A stretch of DNA of 45,413 nucleotides, taken from a virus. Location of the stretch: the IMG/VR virus record IMGVR_UViG_3300010885_008157, positions 1 through 45,413 of that record. The stretch is one strand, 5' to 3'. A program made the translations under genes and the position numbers. The notes beneath the pieces are model-generated. The model searched no databases and was not told the DNA's origin. It worked only from the letters and a program-made list of their open reading frames with translations. Below, piece after piece: positions 543-13,391 of the stretch (the first letter of the stretch is position 1; every line of letters starts with the position of its first letter).

Positions 543-719
543 TTATGCTGCGTCTTGGTTAGAAGTCACACCGCAAGCCTTAAAGAAGCGTTGAGAATCA
601 AATCGTGGGTTGTGTTTGATGGCCACGGAGGCAATGGCAATAGCTGCCTGTAACCGGGAATGCGGGTCCATGATGGCACTGATTGCAGCGGCAATGTCCT
701 CGAAGTGCTTTTTAGTCAT
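543..719 (-). CDS. Small conserved phage protein, 58 aa
   Basis: This short gene begins MTKKHFEDIAAAI and ends with NPRFDSQRFFKACG. That pattern (N-terminal HFxxIA, C-terminal NPRFDxxRFxxACG) is a very common small phage protein of unknown function, recalled from family knowledge rather than a search. The start is well supported by AGGGGA six nt upstream. It lies 11 nt upstream of the 10-531 gene on the same strand and is the first leftward gene after the non-coding repeat region. Confidence 0.8.
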   Translation of the reverse strand: MTKKHFEDIAAAISAIMDPHSRLQAAIAIASVAIKHNPRFDSQRFFKACGVTSNQDAA

Positions 720-740
720 TTGATTTCCCCTATGGAATAT

Positions 741-848
741 TGGTCCACTCAGTCACCCTAGTCGGACAAAATGTCTGTGTCAAGTCCTTGGTCCACTCTC
801 GGTCCATTGGTCCATTGGTCCATTGGTCCATCCGGGTTTCTGGTCCGC
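741..848. repeat. Short GGTCCAYT repeats, tandem at 801-832
   Basis: The octamer GGTCCATT or GGTCCAYT occurs near 741 and 790, and then four times head to tail at about 801-832, with a degenerate copy (GGTCCGCC) at 842. Single inverted copies recur near 1145. They lie just upstream of the leftward gene at 543-719 and beside the 19-bp iteron array, so they are plausible protein-binding sites. No function is shown by the sequence itself. Confidence 0.6.
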
Positions 849-867
849 CCTTGAATTTTTGGAAAAA

Positions 868-1069
868 CTCATTTCGGTTTCAATAACCCATTTTGGGCAC
901 TCAAACCCATTATAATGCACAAACACTCATATTGAGTACAACCGCTCATATTGGGTACATAAACCCATAATGGTGCCAGCAACCCATAATGGTGCCAGCA
1001 ACCCATAATGGTGCCGGTAACCCATAATAGTGCCGGCCCTGGATATTGGTAGCAAAAACCTATTTTGGG
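868..1069. repeat. Iteron array A: 19-bp phased CYCA-N3-TGRG dyads
   Basis: Eleven dyad units start at 868, 887, 906, 926, 945, 964, 983, 1002, 1021, 1040 and 1059, a 19-bp period with a single 20-bp step. The clearest are CCCATTTTGGG (887), CTCATATTGAG (926), CTCATATTGGG (945) and three copies of CCCATAATGGT (964, 983, 1002). The outer and last units are degenerate. Three central units also share the linker GCCRGYAA. Dyad iterons of about 18-19 bp are typical of initiator-binding arrays such as the lambda O sites. Alternatives are an operator cluster or a stoperator array. There is no coding potential across 720-1255. Confidence 0.85.
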
Positions 1070-1076
1070 GCTGCTG

Positions 1077-1131
1077 TTAACCTGTTCGCTTCGCGAACAT
1101 TAACGTTTCGTTCGCTAGGTGAACAGGTTAA
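1077..1131. repeat. 11-bp perfect inverted repeat with inner hairpin
   Basis: TTAACCTGTTC at 1077-1087 is matched perfectly by GAACAGGTTAA at 1121-1131, with a 33-nt spacer. A second palindrome, GTTCGC-TTC-GCGAAC at 1084-1098, overlaps the left arm. It sits directly after the iteron array and about 125 nt before the 1256 gene. It could be an operator, a cruciform or an RNA structure in the leader. It has no T tract, so it is not a simple terminator. Confidence 0.6.
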
Positions 1132-1157
1132 TAATCGCCCTGGAATGGACCAAACCG

Positions 1158-1168
1158 CTCATAATGGG
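1158..1168. promoter_or_regulatory. Isolated CTCATAATGGG dyad upstream of the 1256 gene
   Basis: This is one further match to the dyad that makes up array A. It is located 88 nt before the first codon of the next rightward gene, where an operator would be expected. A small hairpin, GTCGGA-CTAA-TCCGAC at 1223-1238, follows between it and the ribosome binding site. A regulatory role is inferred from position only. Confidence 0.45.
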
Positions 1169-1255
1169 TTTTGAGCTTGGAATTCGTTTGGCTGCAATGC
1201 GGCGCATATATACAAAGAGCGAGTCGGACTAATCCGACAAGAAAGGGGAATCGTT

Positions 1256-2716
1256 ATGGCATTGTTTCAAGTTATAGAATCAGGAACGGGAACCGTGCTT
1301 GCGGAATTCGAGACGCAAGCCCTAGCTCAAATGGATGTAGCCGTGAGGACTGTGGCGGGGGCACAAGTCTATTTTAAAAGAGCTCCTGACATGCAATGGC
1401 GAGAGCGCGAAATGCTACGCTTTATGTCGGAACAATATGAACCGCTAGTTTGGTCAAATGAAATATGGTGGATAAATCGCGAAAATACTTTGCGAGAACA
1501 TTTTGCACATAGGGCCAGCACAATACATGGTTTGGTTGCATATACTGAATCAGCGGAAAAAGGTGAACAGGATAGACAGAGTGTGTCTAAACCGGGGGTC
1601 TATCTTACACGATATTTTTCGACGGTTTTGACTCCGTCAGAGATCGCGCATTGGTCTCGACTCCATTGCATGTCGAAAACCGACTCCGTCGATTTGAAAT
1701 TCGCGACTAGCGTGGAAGATATTGTTCGAGTCTATCGCGATGGACCCGACTCTTGCATGTCTGGCCCTGTATCGGATTATGACTCCAAGATTCATCCCGT
1801 ATCGGTTTATGGCGACTCTGATTTGTCGGTTGCATATGTAGAAGCGGAGTCGGAATATCACGATAAAGATATTGCGAGTCGCGCATTGGTTTGGACCGAT
1901 CGAAAGGTTTACGGTCGCGTTTATCCTACACCCGAGCGATATAATGACTCGCGGCGCGAAATGGCGCGAATTGAGAATAACAAGCTTGTCAAAGCTCTAG
2001 AGTCTGCAGGATATCGCCCCGGCTCATTTAATGGTGCAAAGATTAAAGCAATCTTGCATCGTAGAAGTGAGGAGTCTTATGTCATGCCATATTTAGACGG
2101 TTCTTACGGAGTCAATCTTGTCGGCGACTCTTTCATCCTAGGGCGCGATGCAAGCTTTGAAGCCCAAACGACTGATGGAGTCATACATTTAGAAGCACGG
2201 TTTACATGTGATAGGTGTGAAGAGTCTGCGGACCCTGATGATGCAAGCTCTGTTAGAGTCGCGCGCTATTCGACGGAGTCATGGTGCGAGTCTTGCGTCT
2301 CAAATCATACCTTTTACTGTCATGGCCATGAAGAGTTCTATTCCGACGACGTTGAATCCGTTTCTGATTCATGCGGAAACGATTATTCTATATACTATGC
2401 GTCAGATAATATGTTCCGTTGCGACAATTCAGGGGATTGGTTTGATAACAGCGAAGCACAAGAAGTATATGTGCGCGGGAATAATACAGAAACATGGAGT
2501 CGTGACGCAATATCAGAGGAAGCCTTTTGCTGCTATGGTTCCGGCTCATATTATGCGACTCGCTGGCATAGTAGCGTTGAAATTGACGGGAACGTTTATG
2601 AGCAATCCTATGCTTTGTCTGATTTGCTTCTTTCGACTCGTCTAAAAGAGATGGAACAGGAAGAAGCTTATAAAGATATCGCGAAATTCAATATCGTTAT
2701 GGAAGGTTCGATCTAA
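1256..2716 (+). CDS. Cys-rich phage protein of unknown function, 486 aa
   Basis: The start is supported by AAAGGGGAA about 6 nt upstream. The N-terminal 300 residues show no motif I can name beyond a DGPDSCMSG segment near residue 165 that I associate with phage hypothetical proteins. Residues about 318-430 are rich in Cys and His, with several CxxC-type pairs (CDRCEES, CESCVSN, CHGHEEF), suggesting one or more zinc-binding modules. The stop overlaps the start of the next gene (TAATG), so the two are translationally coupled. The DNA is unusually rich in GAGTC/GACTC and its codon use differs from the structural genes. The function is unknown. Confidence 0.75.
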   Translation: MALFQVIESGTGTVLAEFETQALAQMDVAVRTVAGAQVYFKRAPDMQWREREMLRFMSEQYEPLVWSNEIWWINRENTLREHFAHRASTIHGLVAYTESAEKGEQDRQSVSKPGVYLTRYFSTVLTPSEIAHWSRLHCMSKTDSVDLKFATSVEDIVRVYRDGPDSCMSGPVSDYDSKIHPVSVYGDSDLSVAYVEAESEYHDKDIASRALVWTDRKVYGRVYPTPERYNDSRREMARIENNKLVKALESAGYRPGSFNGAKIKAILHRRSEESYVMPYLDGSYGVNLVGDSFILGRDASFEAQTTDGVIHLEARFTCDRCEESADPDDASSVRVARYSTESWCESCVSNHTFYCHGHEEFYSDDVESVSDSCGNDYSIYYASDNMFRCDNSGDWFDNSEAQEVYVRGNNTETWSRDAISEEAFCCYGSGSYYATRWHSSVEIDGNVYEQSYALSDLLLSTRLKEMEQEEAYKDIAKFNIVMEGSI

Positions 2717-3687
2717 TGACAAAAACAATGCAAAGAAACGCTAAGGCAAGCGAGTCGGCTAATACGGAATCGCTGTTTTATATGCTTCAAACCATGCGCC
2801 CCGCCGGATCGAAAGCGGAAGAAGCTTTTATTGATCGCTGGATTAAACCGCTTGGAACGGAAACAGATGGATACGGGAATCAGGTTATTCGCATAGGGGA
2901 TTCCCCTGTCATGTTTTCGAGTCATACAGATACCGTCCATCGCAATGAAGGTTCGCAAAGAATCAAGATCGCGAATGGATGGATTGCTTTGCATCCTAAA
3001 GAGCGGCGCGCGTCATGCCTTGGCGCAGATTGCACGGCGGGAGTCTGGATCATGCGAGAGATGATTCTAGCAGGGAAGCCGGGGCTTTATGTATTCCACA
3101 GAGAGGAAGAAATAGGGGGATACGGGAGTCAATGGATCGCGGAAAACAATCCAAGCCTGTTAGACGGAATCCTTGCTTGCATTGCGCTGGATAGAAAGGG
3201 AATCGACTCCGTGATCACGCATCAATACGGCGGAAGATGCGCGTCTGATTCCTTTGCTGTTTCGATGGCCAAGCAATTGAAAGGTTATAAGGCTGACGAC
3301 TCCGGCTCATTTACAGACTCCGCGTCTTACACTCATTTAATCCCGGAATGCACGAATCTTTCTGTCGGATATGAGTCGGCCCACACAGATGCAGAGCGTT
3401 TGAATTTGTTTCACCTGGTAAGCTTGCGGGATCAATTGTTGCGCTTTGATATATCGCGAGTCGATATTCGACGCGAACCCGTCGCTAAGGTGACGGCCTT
3501 GTCACGTAGCAATGGGGCTTGGAATGTGTGGGATGATATGGAGTCGCAATGGGATAGACGCGACAATAGAGCGGCGCGGAATGTGACGGAGTTCTGTCGG
3601 CTCTATCCTGACGAAGTCGCTGATTTGCTGGCGCAATATGGTATCGGACTAGGTGACTTATACGAGTCGACTCCGTGGCTTGATTGA
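2716..3687 (+). CDS. M20/M28-type zinc metallopeptidase-like protein, 323 aa
   Basis: The order of metal-ligand motifs matches the co-catalytic metallopeptidase fold (MH clan, M20/M28). They are HTDTVH (H70, D72), GADCTAG (D105), HREEEIGG (E131/E132), ALDRKG (D159) and SAHTDAE (H223). A peptidase or deacylase acting on peptide or amide bonds is therefore likely, but the substrate cannot be told. Such genes occur in some phages, but their role in infection is unclear to me. It is coupled to the upstream Cys-rich gene and shares its GAGTC/GACTC-rich base composition. The residues after about 250 are outside the recognisable core. Confidence 0.75.
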   Translation: MTKTMQRNAKASESANTESLFYMLQTMRPAGSKAEEAFIDRWIKPLGTETDGYGNQVIRIGDSPVMFSSHTDTVHRNEGSQRIKIANGWIALHPKERRASCLGADCTAGVWIMREMILAGKPGLYVFHREEEIGGYGSQWIAENNPSLLDGILACIALDRKGIDSVITHQYGGRCASDSFAVSMAKQLKGYKADDSGSFTDSASYTHLIPECTNLSVGYESAHTDAERLNLFHLVSLRDQLLRFDISRVDIRREPVAKVTALSRSNGAWNVWDDMESQWDRRDNRAARNVTEFCRLYPDEVADLLAQYGIGLGDLYESTPWLD

Positions 3688-3699
3688 TAGGGGAAACAA

Positions 3700-3918
3700 A
3701 TGAAAGTCTACAATTTCAATCTGCAGCTAGGTGAAATGTTCCACAATGCGGAATATATCGGAATCGTCGCGGAAAGCTTGCCGGAAGCGGTCGCGATCTT
3801 GCTGGGGCGCAAAGGTGATAGAGTAGAGTTTCACGGTTTTGAGTTTCTTGGCTTTTACGATCCTTACGACATGACAGCTAGTGAAGAAGATCAAAGGAAG
3901 GCTTGGCAGGAAGCCTAG
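3700..3918 (+). CDS. Hypothetical small protein, 72 aa
   Basis: The start has a clear AGGGGA ribosome binding site 6 nt upstream, and the gene lies 12 nt after the metallopeptidase gene. The product is soluble and acidic at its C-terminus. The pattern (YNFNLQLGEMFHNAEYIGIVAES) suggests a small alpha/beta fold. The family is not recognised. It is the last gene before a rho-independent terminator and so the end of the 1256-3918 transcript. Confidence 0.65.
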   Translation: MKVYNFNLQLGEMFHNAEYIGIVAESLPEAVAILLGRKGDRVEFHGFEFLGFYDPYDMTASEEDQRKAWQEA

Positions 3919-3943
3919 TTAAGGCAAGGCGCATAGCAGGGAC

Positions 3944-3979
3944 AAAGAAGGGAAGGGGCGACTCTTCCCTTTCTTTTTG
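3944..3979 (+). terminator. Rho-independent terminator after the 1256-3918 block
   Basis: The stem AAGGGAAG (3948-3955) pairs with CTTCCCTT (3964-3971) around an 8-nt loop. It extends by an AAAG/CTTT helix with one bulge and is followed by TTCTTTTTG. It separates the metallopeptidase block from the small terminase gene. Confidence 0.75.
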
Positions 3980-3989
3980 TCTATAAAAG

Positions 3990-4020
3990 CTTATAATGGG
4001 TAAAGATAAGCCGTTATGGG
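3990..4020. promoter_or_regulatory. Two dyad-like sites in the small terminase leader
   Basis: CTTATAATGGG at 3990-4000 and GCCGTTATGGG at 4010-4020 match the CYCA-N3-TGRG dyad mainly in the right half and are 20 bp apart, like the spacing in array A. They lie upstream of the small terminase gene, so the same DNA-binding factor may act here. Both copies are imperfect. Confidence 0.4.
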
Positions 4021-4108
4021 TTCGAGCCGTTCTAGGGCACACTACGCGGCAAAGATTGCGGGAAGCTACCTAGGTAGCGGGATATCAATTGAAGGCAAGG
4101 GAAACCCC

Positions 4109-4726
4109 ATGGCAAGGGATAAGACCGCAAAGGAATACAGGACGCGCGCACCTAGTGGGCAGGATATGACGAAAGAGCTACAAGCGAGACTCCCCGCTAT
4201 CAAGGCAAAGGTGAAGGATAGAACCGACAAGCTTCTTATGGGACGCCCTACCACGTACAAGCCAGAGATAGGGGAAAGACTCTGTGAGCTTATGGCAGAG
4301 GGAAACAGTCTCACGGAAGCTTGCGACAAGCTTGGTATCTTGAGGGGGACGGTTCACGGATGGGGGGAAAGAAACCCAGACTTTGCTGCGACCCTCGCAC
4401 GCGCGCGTGAAGCTTTGGCCGAACATGCTTTCTCTGAAGCCTATGCGATACCACGTAAGTTATTGGCATTGTACGACAAAGACCCCGAATTGAAGCTAGA
4501 CCCTGCTAGGGTTCAAGCTGCTAGGCTCGCAACCGATACGCTCAAATGGTATAGCGAACGCCTCAAGCCCCGCACGTTTGGCGAGAAGAAGATTGAGCAA
4601 TCCGTTACAGTTACTAACAATACGTTAACGATCGACTCACGTGAGCTCTCACAGGATCAAAGGGATGCATTGCGCGGCGCATTGCTAGCGGCCAAGAACC
4701 TTCCCGTGACCATTGACCACGACTAG
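4109..4726 (+). CDS. terS: Terminase small subunit (TerS), 205 aa
   Basis: The sequence has the layout of phage small terminases. A basic N-terminus is followed by GRPTTYKPEIGERLCELMAE and a helix-turn-helix (SLTEACDKLGILRGTVHGW, about residues 65-85). Then comes a long helical region (LDPARVQAARLATDTLKWY) and a C-terminal tail that may contact the large subunit. It would bind the packaging site on concatemeric DNA. I chose the ATG at 4109, with GAAGGCAAGGG upstream. An in-frame ATG at 4016 would add 31 residues but has a poor ribosome binding site. It is unusual in lying more than 6 kb from the large subunit gene. Confidence 0.8.
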   Translation: MARDKTAKEYRTRAPSGQDMTKELQARLPAIKAKVKDRTDKLLMGRPTTYKPEIGERLCELMAEGNSLTEACDKLGILRGTVHGWGERNPDFAATLARAREALAEHAFSEAYAIPRKLLALYDKDPELKLDPARVQAARLATDTLKWYSERLKPRTFGEKKIEQSVTVTNNTLTIDSRELSQDQRDALRGALLAAKNLPVTIDHD

Positions 4727-4783
4727 CGTTCTATCGTTGCGGAGCGGAAACTACACACATTAGACAATGCTAATATACCAGCG

Positions 4784-4997
4784 CCCAATATGAGCACCTG
4801 TCCCTACACTAGGTGATCCTACCTAACCAGGGCATATGCCCACTCTGGGTGCCCACTATGAGCTATCGCCCAGATCGGGTGCCCACAATGGGTGATCGCC
4901 CAACCTGGGTGCCCACAATGGGTCGCCGCTACCAGTCCGCCAGGGCTGTGCCCAATATGAGCGCTCGCCTGGTTCAGGTACCCCTGCTCAAAATGGG
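4784..4997. repeat. Iteron array B: dyads in a 13/17-bp (30-bp) alternation
   Basis: The same CYCA-N3-TGRG dyad occurs at 4784, 4803 (degenerate), 4822 (CCTAACCAGGG), 4839, 4852, 4869, 4882, 4899, 4912, 4951, 4968 (CCTGGTTCAGG) and 4987. The first three are spaced 19 bp. From 4839 to 4912 the spacing alternates 13 and 17 bp, giving three 30-bp double units. Good examples are CCCACTCTGGG, CCCACAATGGG (twice) and CCCAACCTGGG. No gene covers 4727-5669, and the open frames here are low-complexity by-products of the repeats. Confidence 0.85.
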
Positions 4998-5060
4998 CAG
5001 TCCGGTCCACAGAAACGCCCCCTGGGTTTTAGGCTCCCCTGCCTTCCCACGAGATTTAGG

Positions 5061-5129
5061 TACTATCCAAATTCCATCATTGAAATCCAAATTCCATTTT
5101 CCCCAACAATTTTCCCAAAAAAATTCTGA
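5061..5129. other. AT-rich segment with 13-bp direct repeats, candidate unwinding element
   Basis: ATCCAAATTCCAT occurs at 5065-5077 and again at 5085-5097, 20 bp apart. It lies inside a locally AT-rich stretch that runs up to 5129, where it contains an A7 run. AT-rich 13-mers next to a DnaA box are the classic form of a bacterial duplex-unwinding element. That role here is inferred from arrangement only. Confidence 0.5.
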
Positions 5130-5141
5130 ACCTGTGCAAAC

Positions 5142-5150
5142 TTATCCACA
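5142..5150 (+). promoter_or_regulatory. Consensus DnaA box TTATCCACA
   Basis: This is an exact match to the 9-bp DnaA-binding consensus in non-coding DNA, 12 nt after the AT-rich segment. The phage also encodes a DnaA domain IV-like protein at 10260-10607, so either the host DnaA or the phage protein could bind here. Only one perfect copy lies in non-coding DNA in this window. Confidence 0.6.
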
Positions 5151-5161
5151 GCCCCCCGTAG

Positions 5162-5212
5162 GGTATCCCACTGGCTAGGGAGTACTACCAAGAGAAGACG
5201 GTATCCCACTGG
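5162..5212. repeat. Direct repeat GGTATCCCACTGG, 38 bp apart
   Basis: Exact 13-bp copies lie at 5162-5174 and 5200-5212. The 38-bp distance is twice the 19-bp period of the neighbouring dyad arrays. Both are in non-coding DNA between the DnaA box and array C. The function is unknown. Confidence 0.5.
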
Positions 5213-5260
5213 TCCTTTGGTCCCTCCATAGTCCCTTACCTCCCCTATGGGAAATACGTA

Positions 5261-5309
5261 CCCACAATGGGTTGTAGTGCTCAATCTGGGTAACGGTGCT
5301 CAATCTAAG
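5261..5309. repeat. Iteron array C: three dyads at 19-bp spacing
   Basis: CCCACAATGGG (5261), CTCAATCTGGG (5280) and CTCAATCTAAG (5299) continue the dyad family with the exact 19-bp period. They are followed by AGGGATCAT-NN-ATG at about 5312 and again at about 5353, just before the parS palindrome. Confidence 0.75.
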
Positions 5310-5369
5310 TTAGGGATCATAGATGGTACTTTACCCCTCTGTATCCTGCATAAGGGATCATCCATGAAC

Positions 5370-5385
5370 TGTTTCACGTGAAACA
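5370..5385. promoter_or_regulatory. parS: Perfect parS site TGTTTCACGTGAAACA (ParB binding site)
   Basis: This 16-bp perfect palindrome matches the chromosomal parS consensus (TGTTNCACGTGAAACA) bound by ParB/Spo0J in most bacterial phyla. It is in non-coding DNA next to the iterons and the DnaA box. No ParA or ParB gene lies in this window, so the ligand would be the host ParB or a phage ParB encoded outside it. A chance occurrence of this exact 16-mer in 45 kb is very unlikely. What it does for the phage is inference. Confidence 0.85.
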
Positions 5386-5437
5386 TGCCTAGAACACCCT
5401 ACGTTGCCCTGGCCAGAAGCGTGGTCCAGACAAAGAA

Positions 5438-5468
5438 AAACCACCGAGGATTGCTCCAACGGTGGTTT
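5438..5468 (-). terminator. Hairpin terminator of the leftward operon (copy 1)
   Basis: The stem AAACCACCG (5438-5446) pairs perfectly with CGGTGGTTT (5460-5468). On the minus strand the hairpin ends in a T run (the AAAAA before the stem). The loop on the minus strand reads TTGGAGCAATCCT. It would end the minus-strand operon that finishes at 5670. Confidence 0.7.
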
Positions 5469-5531
5469 CTGGCAACGGAGGCTGAATTCCATTTGCCGGA
5501 TAACTCTATCACACCTATGCGCCCGGTCAAG

Positions 5532-5566
5532 AAAAAGCCGCCAAAGGATTACTCCCCTGACGGCTT
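5532..5566 (-). terminator. Hairpin terminator of the leftward operon (copy 2)
   Basis: The stem AAGCCG (5535-5540) pairs with CGGCTT (5561-5566) and extends inward with one mismatch. On the minus strand it is followed by a T run. The minus-strand loop contains GGAGTAATCC, nearly identical to GGAGCAATCC in copy 1. Being nearest to the operon it would act first, with copy 1 as a back-up. The 5567-5669 stretch between it and the last gene shows nothing else I can name. Confidence 0.65.
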
Positions 5567-5669
5567 CTCTTGTTGAACTGCCCGATCAACCCAAAGAGGA
5601 TAGCATTCTAGCAGCCTCTCCACAACTCAATCAACCAACCCAGAACCCCACCCATCCCATCATGTGCAC

Positions 5670-5957: not shown

Positions 5958-5979
5958 GATATTTCCTTTGGCTAGGCCA

Positions 5980-6015
5980 CTGTAAGACAGTCTAGGCACT
6001 GTAAGGCAGTCTAGG
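5980..6015. repeat. Two copies of CTGTAAGNCAGTCTAGG, 19 bp apart
   Basis: CTGTAAGACAGTCTAGG (5980-5996) and CTGTAAGGCAGTCTAGG (5999-6015) lie between two leftward genes. A third copy is at 26813-26829. CTG and CAG form a small inner dyad around TAAGN. They may be protein-binding sites or RNA hairpins in the mRNA. The function is unknown. Confidence 0.6.
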
Positions 6016-6058
6016 CAGCGTCCTTAGGTGGAGTTGGTAAAGCCATCCAATGGGTAGC

Positions 6059-11105: not shown

Positions 11106-13204
11106 GCAAGCTTATCATTGACGGTCGTGAAATCAGTATTGACGATCAGTTGCGTGACCTAGATCGCTCTGACTGCGAAGATGACTTGTACACATTCTTG
11201 AAAAACGCTTGGAAATACATCGACTCCTCTGAGTTTACAGACGGCTGGCCTATCCAGGCAGTGGCTGATCACTTGCAATCTGTTGCTGACGGGGACATCA
11301 AGCGCCTTATCATCAACATTCCGCCTCGTTGCGCCAAGTCATCGCTGACTTCTGTTGCCTTCCCAGCTTGGGTTTGGGCTCAGCCGTGGTCTGGTCACAC
11401 CTCTGGGCCGGGTATCCAGTTCCTCCACGCCTCATATGCCCAGCAGCTTTCCCTTCGCGACAGCGTGAAGTGCCGCAGACTGATCGAATCACCTTGGTAC
11501 CAGTCTATGTGGGGCGACAGGTTCCGTCTGACCGGGGACCAGAACACCAAAACCCGCTTTGATAACGACAAGGGAGGGTCTCGGTTGTCCACCTCTGTTG
11601 GCTCGGCCCTGACGGGTGAGGGCGGCAACATCATTGTGGTCGATGATCCGAACGCTGCACAGGAAGCTTTCTCTGAGGCATCCATCTATAACACGATTGA
11701 GTGGTGGGACTCGGCTCTCTCCACCCGTCTCAACGACCCAAAGCACGGTTCTTTTGTTGTCATCCAGCAGAGGCTGAGTGAAGAGGACCTGACCGGGCAT
11801 ATTTTGTCCAAAGACATGGGCGAGTGGACCCACCTATGTCTCCCAATGCGTTACGAGTGGAGGCGTCACTCATACTCTTCCCTTGGTTGGCATGACCCTC
11901 GTGGCTTGGATGAGGACGGTGAGCCCCTTATTGAGGTCAATGAGGACGGTGAGCGCGTTCCGGTTGACATTGATGCCGAGATAGAACTGGACAAACGGGA
12001 GGGGACGCTGCTCTGGCCCGAGCGTTTTGGTGAGCGGGAAGTCTCAATTCTTGAGCGGCAGCTTGGACCGTGGGCATCTGCTGGACAGTTGCAGCAAAGG
12101 CCCGAGCCAAAGGGCGGCGGTATCATTAAAAGGGACTGGTGGCAGCCTTGGGATGCTACAAACTACCCAAACATGGACATGATTATTGCCTGTGTGGACA
12201 CGGCGTACACTAAAAAGACAGAAAACGACCCGTCAGCCATGACTGTGTGGGGAATTTTCAGCCAAGACGTGACCGTTCAGTCCCCAAACCATGCTGGTGG
12301 ACGCCACGGAGGGTTAATTTCGTATGAGCGGCCATATACGGAGACAAACCCACGGGTAATGCTCATGTATGCGTGGCAAGGGCGGTACGAATTGCATGAT
12401 CTGGTAAATAAAGTCTCTGAAACGTGCAAAAAAATGAAGGTGGATACGCTTCTGATTGAAAATAAAGCCGCAGGACATTCTGTCGCGCAAGAAATCAAGC
12501 GCATGTACGGGTTTGAGCGGTTTAGCGTGCAGATGTTTGACCCCAAAAGCCAAGATAAGCTGGCTAGGCTATATTCTGTACAGCATTTGTTTGCTGAAGG
12601 GCTGGTTTACGCTCCCAATAAGGCTTGGGCGGAGATGGTCATTCAACAGATTGGGCAGTTTCCCAAAGGCAAACATGATGACCTTTGCCTTATAGGGAAT
12701 ACGCGCATCTTGATGGCAGACGGGGACGAGAAATTGCTTCAAGAAGTCGCCGTTGGAGATATGGTGAGAACTCCCAATGGAACCCAGCGCGTATCTGCAT
12801 CTTCATTGACCGGGATTAAGCCAATTTGGCGCTTAGACTACAGTGGCGGGTCAATAGAAGGAACTGCATTCCACCCGGTCTTTGCCAACGGGAAATGGAG
12901 AGAGCTTGCGTCTTTATCTTTACACGATGTGCTTGCTTCATTGGATACGGGTCTAGGCACGTGTGTGGTAGAAGCCGTCAAGTTCACCCATATTATGCAG
13001 CCAGTCTACAACCTGACAGTTGAGGGAGAAGGTTGCTATTACGCCAACGGTATCTTGGTTCATAACTGCGACACGGTCAGTATGGCCATGAGGCACCTTC
13101 GCGATACCGGCGTCATCCTTCGTCCGACTGAATGGCAGGCCGAGCTTGAGGACAGCTTGCAGTTCAGGGGCGCAAACAAGAGCACTCCGCTTTACCCTGC
13201 GTAG
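11102..13204 (+). CDS. terL: Terminase large subunit (TerL) with intein, 700 aa precursor
   Basis: The ATPase domain has NIPPRCAKSSL near residue 72, a Walker A variant with Ala-Lys-Ser instead of Gly-Lys-Ser/Thr, and Walker B IIVVDDPN near 177. The RNase H-like nuclease domain has ACVDTAYT (about 362), LLIENKAAG (about 450) and the final KHDDL/CDTV acidic motif. It would translocate DNA into the prohead and cut the concatemer. A 127-residue intein (residues 529-655) lies exactly inside the last nuclease motif, so a mature protein of 573 residues needs splicing. Frame and catalytic flanks are intact. It follows the HicA-like gene by ATGA overlap. Confidence 0.95.
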   Translation: MSKLIIDGREISIDDQLRDLDRSDCEDDLYTFLKNAWKYIDSSEFTDGWPIQAVADHLQSVADGDIKRLIINIPPRCAKSSLTSVAFPAWVWAQPWSGHTSGPGIQFLHASYAQQLSLRDSVKCRRLIESPWYQSMWGDRFRLTGDQNTKTRFDNDKGGSRLSTSVGSALTGEGGNIIVVDDPNAAQEAFSEASIYNTIEWWDSALSTRLNDPKHGSFVVIQQRLSEEDLTGHILSKDMGEWTHLCLPMRYEWRRHSYSSLGWHDPRGLDEDGEPLIEVNEDGERVPVDIDAEIELDKREGTLLWPERFGEREVSILERQLGPWASAGQLQQRPEPKGGGIIKRDWWQPWDATNYPNMDMIIACVDTAYTKKTENDPSAMTVWGIFSQDVTVQSPNHAGGRHGGLISYERPYTETNPRVMLMYAWQGRYELHDLVNKVSETCKKMKVDTLLIENKAAGHSVAQEIKRMYGFERFSVQMFDPKSQDKLARLYSVQHLFAEGLVYAPNKAWAEMVIQQIGQFPKGKHDDLCLIGNTRILMADGDEKLLQEVAVGDMVRTPNGTQRVSASSLTGIKPIWRLDYSGGSIEGTAFHPVFANGKWRELASLSLHDVLASLDTGLGTCVVEAVKFTHIMQPVYNLTVEGEGCYYANGILVHNCDTVSMAMRHLRDTGVILRPTEWQAELEDSLQFRGANKSTPLYPA
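12686..13066 (+). mobile_element. Mini-intein in the TerL nuclease motif, 127 aa
   Basis: The insert has the Hint/intein blocks. Block A starts with Cys (CLIGNTRILMADGD, then VAVGDMV), block B is GTAFHPV, block F is VYNLTVEGEGCYYANGILVHN, and block G ends His-Asn followed by extein Cys. All splicing residues are present: Cys1, the block B His (GTxxHP), the terminal His-Asn and Cys+1. At 127 residues there is no room for a homing endonuclease, so it is a mini-intein. It splits KHDDL from CDTVSM, disabling the nuclease until splicing. Confidence 0.93.
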
Positions 13205-13227: not shown

Positions 13228-13304
13228 CGGGGCGTAGCGCAGTTTGGTAGCGCATCTGCTTTGGGAGCAGAGGGTCAGAGGTTCAAATCCTCTCGCCCCG
13301 ACCA
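13228..13304 (+). tRNA. tRNA-Pro (UGG)
   Basis: The 77-nt sequence folds as a full cloverleaf. The acceptor stem CGGGGCG pairs with CGCCCCG, the T-loop is GTTCAAATC, and the anticodon stem TCTGC/GCAGA encloses TTTGGGA, giving anticodon TGG at 13262-13264. ACCA is encoded at the 3' end. It lies just after TerL, probably in the same transcript. Confidence 0.96.
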
Positions 13305-13315
13305 CTTTAAAACAC

Positions 13316-13391
13316 TCGGGAGTGGCGCAATTGGTGGCGCAGGGGACTTTGAATCCCAAGGTTGAAGGTTCGAGCCCTTCCTCCCGAACCA
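13316..13391 (+). tRNA. tRNA-Gln (UUG)
   Basis: The 76-nt cloverleaf has acceptor stem TCGGGAG/CTCCCGA with the weak U1-A72 pair typical of tRNA-Gln. The anticodon loop CTTTGAA gives anticodon TTG. The T-loop is GTTCGAGCC, and ACCA is encoded. It lies 11 nt after tRNA-Pro. Confidence 0.95.

Follow-up and report, generated by a model that had tools for sequence, protein, structure and literature searches.

A row of short inverted repeats in this viral DNA, set at a nearly constant 19-bp step, raises the question of what it binds and what such binding would do for the phage. The window analyzed here is a whole stretch of 45,413 bases, an IMG/VR virus record classed as linear with terminase and portal genes. 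The sequence-only reading had claimed eleven 19-bp-phased copies of the dyad CYCA-N3-TGRG, and a second array of the same dyad about 4 kb away with 19-bp or 13/17-bp spacing. That second array is present at 4784-5309, and a further single copy lies between the two.

868-1069, unstranded: array 1, ten CYCA-N3-TGRG dyads at 19-bp steps in slots from 868 to 1059, with a non-dyad at 1040
1158-1168, unstranded: single perfect dyad near the rightward promoter, kept in the relatives L007, L004, L028 and L029
4784-4997, unstranded: array 2a, nine dyads (4784, 4839, 4852, 4869, 4882, 4899, 4912, 4951 and 4987), partly at 13/17-bp steps
5261-5309, unstranded: array 2b, three dyads (5261, 5280 and 5299) at 19-bp steps, the third matching 7/8

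Array 1 is real. Scored out of 8, its slots match the dyad at 868 (6), 887 (8), 906 (6), 926 (8), 945 (8), 964 (7), 983 (7), 1002 (7), 1021 (6) and 1059 (7), three of the ten dyads being perfect. The claim of eleven thus stands for ten slots; the one at 1040 is not a dyad (4, or 5 after a 1-bp shift), and the step from 906 to 926 is 20 bp, the sole one other than 19. The longest chain of sites scoring at least 6/8 at 18-20-bp steps comprises nine in array 1, and the same statistic did not exceed 3 in 5000 dinucleotide shuffles of the segment or 2 in 280-bp windows across 5601-45413. At a threshold of at least 7/8, positions 801-1250 hold 8 sites versus 0.8 expected (maximum 4 in 500 shuffles) and positions 4731-5340 hold 12 versus 1.6 (maximum 5 in 500 shuffles). 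Within 962-1034 the entire 19-bp unit is repeated in tandem almost perfectly (3.8 copies, 94%), so the four sites there are not independent; array 2 likewise contains a 30-bp repeat alongside its 13/17-bp steps. We scanned the window with a leave-one-out position weight matrix, from which the window's own sites were excluded, at a threshold of about one chance match. All 15 matches fell in array 1, in array 2 or at 1158; the equal motif density in shuffled or coding sequence that would have made the arrays unremarkable was not observed. The phasing does not place the sites on one helical face, as had been proposed: 19 bp corresponds to 1.81 turns, or 291 degrees per step, so that successive sites lie on different faces.

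The 77 distinct sites from eight phages define a 13-bp palindrome, RCYCANWNTGRGY, that is, R-CYCA-N-W-N-TGRG-Y. Motif positions 1-11 served for site selection, whereas the flanking R/Y and the central W did not; these carry 0.73 bit (R), 0.50 bit (Y) and 0.61 bit (W). Spacers between the same sites carry at most 0.26 bit. A satellite or VNTR was rejected, as the whole unit including the spacer is not repeated, save in the 962-1034 block and the 30-bp repeat of array 2. Because the palindrome is kept and the spacers are free, the dyad is a putative protein site and not a satellite. The earlier proposal of a DNA-binding protein that occupies the arrays is thus well supported, the spacing also being kept across phages, and the best explanation is that the dyads are predicted sites of one sequence-specific dimeric protein. 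A further 19-bp tandem repeat in the window (CTAGGCACTGTAAGACAGT, 2.4 copies at 5972-6017) is unrelated in sequence.

The arrays lie among the following elements.

755-783, minus strand: leftward promoter P_L, TTGACA-N17-TAGGGT, with a GACA-N3-TGTC palindrome in the spacer, an arrangement common to relatives
801-831, unstranded: 8-bp tandem repeat GGTCCATT, upstream of P_L
1084-1124, unstranded: palindrome pair GTTCGC-N3-GCGAAC / GTTCGC-N3-GTGAAC
1207-1212, plus strand: TATATA, -10-like element of the presumed rightward promoter P_R, a consensus match only
1256-2716, plus strand: gene for a 486-aa protein of no known family, saturated with GANTC
2716-3687, plus strand: gene for a Zn-peptidase-like protein, saturated with GANTC
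4016-4726, plus strand: terminase small subunit gene (terS) with an Sf6-type HTH; its start may be at about 4106
5370-5385, unstranded: exact chromosomal-type parS, TGTTTCACGTGAAACA, beyond array 2

Read rightward, the conserved order is a leftward operon, P_L, short tandem repeats, array 1, the GTTCGC/GCGAAC palindrome pair, the single dyad, P_R, the 486-aa protein and peptidase genes, terS, array 2, parS and an oppositely directed gene cluster, array 2 occupying the gap between convergent genes. P_L and P_R were assigned by eye and with a looser pattern; a generic promoter scan of 500-1400 returned one site versus 1.7 expected and missed P_L. The tandem repeats upstream of P_L keep their place while their sequence varies (GGTCCATT, CCAA, TGACCAAT, CGACCGAC, GGTCGGTCA). 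The GTTCGC-N3-G(C/T)GAAC pair, 25-28 bp apart in the gap between array 1 and P_R, is found in the window, L004, L028, L029, L055 and L030, with one copy of this type in L007 and L050, and is likely a second operator. Between array 1 and these palindromes, L050 and L055 carry an A+T-rich ATTACCGG-type repeat block that was not seen in the window. Ahead of terS, a dyad-like match (3990; 11020 in L007) overlaps TATAAT and could simply be a -10 element. The predicted structure of the 486-aa protein (pLDDT 88.2, pTM 0.44) had no match in the PDB at E <= 0.001. An Rfam search returned two tRNAs only; tRNA-Pro(TGG) and tRNA-Gln(TTG) genes lie at 13228-13391 of the window, between terL and the portal gene.

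Relatives were collected from IMG/VR by searches with TerS, the peptidase and the 486-aa protein and by pattern scans. Arrays were found in eight related phages beyond the window, which share the layout: L007 (one contig with L003), L004, L028 (with L048; G10), L029, L050, L055, G7 (L054, a 59,664-base contig) and L297. In all five relatives with both ends of the segment visible, arrays stand at both ends. Among the motif pairs of G7 spaced 11-44 bp apart, the spacing is 19 bp twelve times, 38 bp ten times and 33 bp once, with none other. This phage lacks the two-gene operon, and the place between the arrays is taken by an AAA+ operon that is unrelated and lies on the opposite strand; its TerS is 30% identical, and both arrays and parS are nevertheless retained. 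Arrays recur, then, in relatives with diverged or replaced terminases and early genes. Among the best 80 of 329 primase relatives, eight loci have arrays, those of L055, L029 and L004 as judged in one of two rounds; L302, L303 and L305 have a phased dyad pair downstream of terS, and L030/L274 has degenerate copies and one strong site. A second clade with an unrelated terS (L049, L227, L228, L229 and L231) carries the same dyads, which span the 3' end of terS together with the gap that precedes terL, with at least three phased sites in 5 of 17 loci. Within this clade the arrays vary between phages whose TerL proteins are 99% identical.

We tentatively favor an operator or architectural array that controls the early segment and perhaps ties its two ends together. 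Two arrays about 4 kb apart bracket the early operon and terS, and this layout is kept while the enclosed genes change. Paired phased arrays that outlast gene swaps inside them suggest a control device on which selection acts more strongly than on its cargo. Dimers of one protein would bind cooperatively along the arrays, and the rightward early operon would be controlled by whether the promoter-proximal site is occupied; protein bridges (looping or handcuffing) would join arrays 1 and 2 into a single nucleoprotein domain by which the segment is silenced or timed. The cooperative repressor suggested by the sequence-only reading is possible and comes close to this explanation. As in phage operator arrays generally, which have palindromes at or near promoters, a dyad lies at P_R in five phages (the window, L007, L004, L028 and L029). 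Its center is 23-25 bp upstream of TATAAT, the -35 position, in L004, L028 and L029, whereas the window and L007 have it 44 bp ahead of their TATATA, roughly one array period further upstream; the position relative to the -10 element thus differs by 19-21 bp between the two groups. Since P_R has no clear -35 element, the promoter-proximal site could equally serve an activator. Several points argue against the operator reading. P_L is 85-290 bp away from array 1 and the single P_R site follows the array by about 90 bp or more, so the array covers no core promoter; the convergent gap of array 2 has no evident promoter; and no convincing gene tracks the dyads in the comparison of 4 with 5 genomes.

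That comparison covered 4 dyad-bearing and 5 dyad-free genomes and sought genes present in at least 3 of the former and at most 1 of the latter; only shadow ORFs and fragments tracked the dyads. Comparing genes across 9 and 26 loci gave, as the only correlates, shadow ORFs across the arrays and the 486-aa protein/peptidase pair, which is present in 6 of 9 dyad loci and 1 of 26 others and absent from G7. Two specific candidates were rejected. TerS is an unlikely binder, because the motif is constant although TerS has diverged to 30% identity in G7, and the same dyads are present in the clade whose terS is unrelated. The small HTH protein encoded between the methylase and O genes (2426-2719 in L007) has orthologs in dyad-bearing and dyad-free phages alike, with an ERTLYRW-like recognition helix kept whether dyads are present or absent, and therefore does not track them.

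The failure of any phage gene to track the dyads counts toward a rival reading, in which they dock a host-encoded DNA-binding protein and the phage borrows this host factor to control or position its genome, as with parS-ParB and GANTC-CcrM. The two clades with unrelated TerS proteins share the motif, at 19- and 14-bp steps, and it is unchanged where the phages' own DNA-binding proteins have diverged. The neighboring parS also points this way, the exact TGTTTCACGTGAAACA 16-mer occurring in 134 of 190 alphaproteobacterial genomes. The phage host is probably an alphaproteobacterium, but a dyad pair was found in none of 385 alphaproteobacterial genomes, nor in any of 142 with a looser pattern, where pairs only were counted and the hosts are inferred. 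Arrays were likewise not found in the nearest named phages of the second clade (phiM5, MW202496 and MW202711). Docking of a host protein is accordingly possible but doubtful. In bacterial genome contigs, 37 dyad stretches were satellites as judged from excerpts, and no free-spacer arrays were seen. L052 from IMG/VR and L184, an Oscillospiraceae MAG, both of length 20,082, carry the same 19-bp satellite; they are probably one sequence, possibly a misclassified bacterial contig.

Two kinds of neighboring element accompany the arrays. TGTTTCACGTGAAACA is common across IMG/VR (at least 120 stretches), and its 14-mer core is also present in L007, L028 and G7. Where at least 1200 bp beyond terS could be seen (31 primase-relative loci), 26 of 27 parS copies fall in the first 2.5 kb downstream of that gene; they occupy 11 loci, 1-5 copies in each, and L286 is among the relatives with parS in this place. 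GANTC (CcrM) sites reach 16-19 per kb in the segment between the arrays, compared with about 2 elsewhere. Against codon- and residue-preserving shuffles of the 486-aa protein and peptidase genes, observed versus expected counts were 48/25.7 in the window, 44/24.3 in L007, 38/20.3 in L004, 34/18.0 in L028 and 23/15.0 in L029 (one gene), and the unrelated operon between the arrays of G7 has 18 versus 9.4. L050 shows a weak excess (22/16.0) and L030 none (17/15.5), nor was any found in terL, the portal gene or other control genes. Over the 3.5 kb upstream of terS, GANTC density is at least twice that of the rest in 30 of 42 loci and not in the other 12. Of 7 records, 6 encode a GcrA-family protein (for example, L019 at 12505-12939, minus strand), the window fragment not being among them; phage GcrA homologs were described for phiCbK (PMC3556154). 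These elements would fit a control island wired to the host cell cycle, in which the arrays clamp the GANTC-saturated early segment, host ParB sits on parS, and the phage GcrA-family protein reads methylation, so that early transcription and genome positioning would follow the methylation and segregation state of the host. We consider the full scheme unlikely. Together with the arrays, the parS and the GANTC-saturated operon make a coupling of phage early expression to ParABS and CcrM/GcrA testable.

If the arrays instead bound a replication initiator, array 1 (or 2) would be an origin. This is consistent with phased palindromes in a divergent intergenic gap, with positions 849-971 being among the lowest-G+C stretches of the window, with the A+T-rich ATTACCGG-type block adjoining array 1 in L050 and L055, and with an O-like winged-helix protein in the lineage (HTH_36 and the O-like PHROGs 270 and 391 in L007 and G7). 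The lineage also encodes a helicase and a primase, whereas the window fragment has no replication genes. This O-like protein, however, has palindromes of its own. The gap between the O and helicase genes contains a perfect 15-bp palindrome with a 3-bp center in 13 of 23 loci, versus 0.03-0.10 per locus expected from shuffles, such as GGGTCTATTAGACCC in L055, L274 and L306, GGTCCAATTTGGACC in L278 and GTGACTCACAGTCAC in L298. These palindromes differ in L273, L278, L297 and L055 despite the same dyads, and the dyad arrays stand kilobases away from the O-like gene, at two places. Only in L029, 1 of the 23 loci, does the O palindrome match the dyad 8/8, so that a relation in fold or origin between O sites and dyads is possible; their shared geometry likewise makes a related winged-helix binder possible. 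The GC skew sign change at array 2 is expected from the convergent genes and gives no clear origin signature, and the DnaA box at 5142 is within chance (8 boxes with at most one mismatch versus 7.4 expected) and absent from L028. The lambda-O-like initiator array put forward earlier is mostly refuted on these sequence comparisons, as is the phage O-like initiator as the dyad binder, and an origin at either array seems quite unlikely. In L055, L274, L278, L298, L029 and others, two to three palindromic iterons sit immediately past the O-like gene and are candidates for lambda-like origins. This uncultured lineage thus has a candidate O/iteron origin module of the lambda type, whose iterons vary from phage to phage.

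The exact parS adjoining one of two arrays invites a comparison with centromeres, in which the dyads would be partition arrays akin to parS-L/parS-R of extrachromosomal mycobacteriophages, alongside the host-type parS. Phages of the RedRock type have two arrays of eight repeats (PMC7157519), and dyad-free sister phages here carry up to five parS at the place of array 2; L071 and L098 have five each, with other repeats in place of the dyads. Searches for ParB_N (0 of 9 records), AAA_31 (0 of 7) and Phage_integrase (0 of 9), several of the records being fragments, found none, and a dyad at a promoter is unexpected for a centromere; partition arrays are improbable. Packaging, with dyads marking the cutting places of terminase and the segment between the arrays possibly a long terminal repeat, is very improbable: array 2 does start 1 to about 60 bp past terS in the window, L007, L004, L028 and G7, and in the unrelated L049 clade, too, dyads lie at the end of terS before terL, but one motif serves the unrelated TerS proteins of two clades, 11-13 sites per array plus a promoter site are atypical, and no terminal repeat was seen.

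We found no account of these arrays in the literature searched, which included few subscription papers, and a nucleotide search of INPHARED with positions 600-5600 gave no match. The motif, the paired phased layout and the accompanying elements are absent from searchable papers, while operator and iteron arrays are known kinds. One parallel for an operator or architectural array is lambda OL/OR, where two clusters of three 17-bp palindromic operators a few kb apart are bound by cooperative, looping CI dimers. The paired palindromic clusters a few kb apart are alike, as would be the cooperative dimers; unlike lambda, each cluster here has 10-12 sites at 19- or 13/17-bp steps, and no CI-like protein was identified. 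The lambda ori iterons resemble the dyads as a row of 18-bp imperfect palindromes with C-rich arms, and an O-like winged-helix protein is encoded here too (in L007 and G7, outside the window fragment). The four lambda iterons, however, lie inside the O gene at 20-24-bp steps, while the dyads lie kilobases from the O-like gene, which other palindromes adjoin, and their sequence does not follow the O protein, coinciding with its site only in L029. The iterons of P1 and the F plasmid are direct repeats with a period of about 19-21 bp adjoining a rep gene; the periodicity is similar, but the repeats here are palindromes with no rep gene beside them.

Among mycobacteriophages, the L5 stoperators of cluster A are many copies of a short site, located in promoter regions and in small gaps between genes (PMC9283540). 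They share with the dyads the many copies of one short site in one phage genome, but they are asymmetric 13-mers, genome-wide and bound by a monomer, whereas the dyad is a palindrome found nearly exclusively in two phased arrays. Stoperators of the L5 type were rejected on this palindromic symmetry and on the confinement of 15 of 15 matches to two arrays and one promoter region. RedRock parS-L/parS-R (PMC7157519) are also two arrays of eight repeats each, yet these are 8-bp direct repeats bound by a phage ParB and accompanied by a phage ParA, neither family of which was found here. The element at 5370 is, by comparison, an exact copy of the alphaproteobacterial 16-mer that typifies chromosomal parS.
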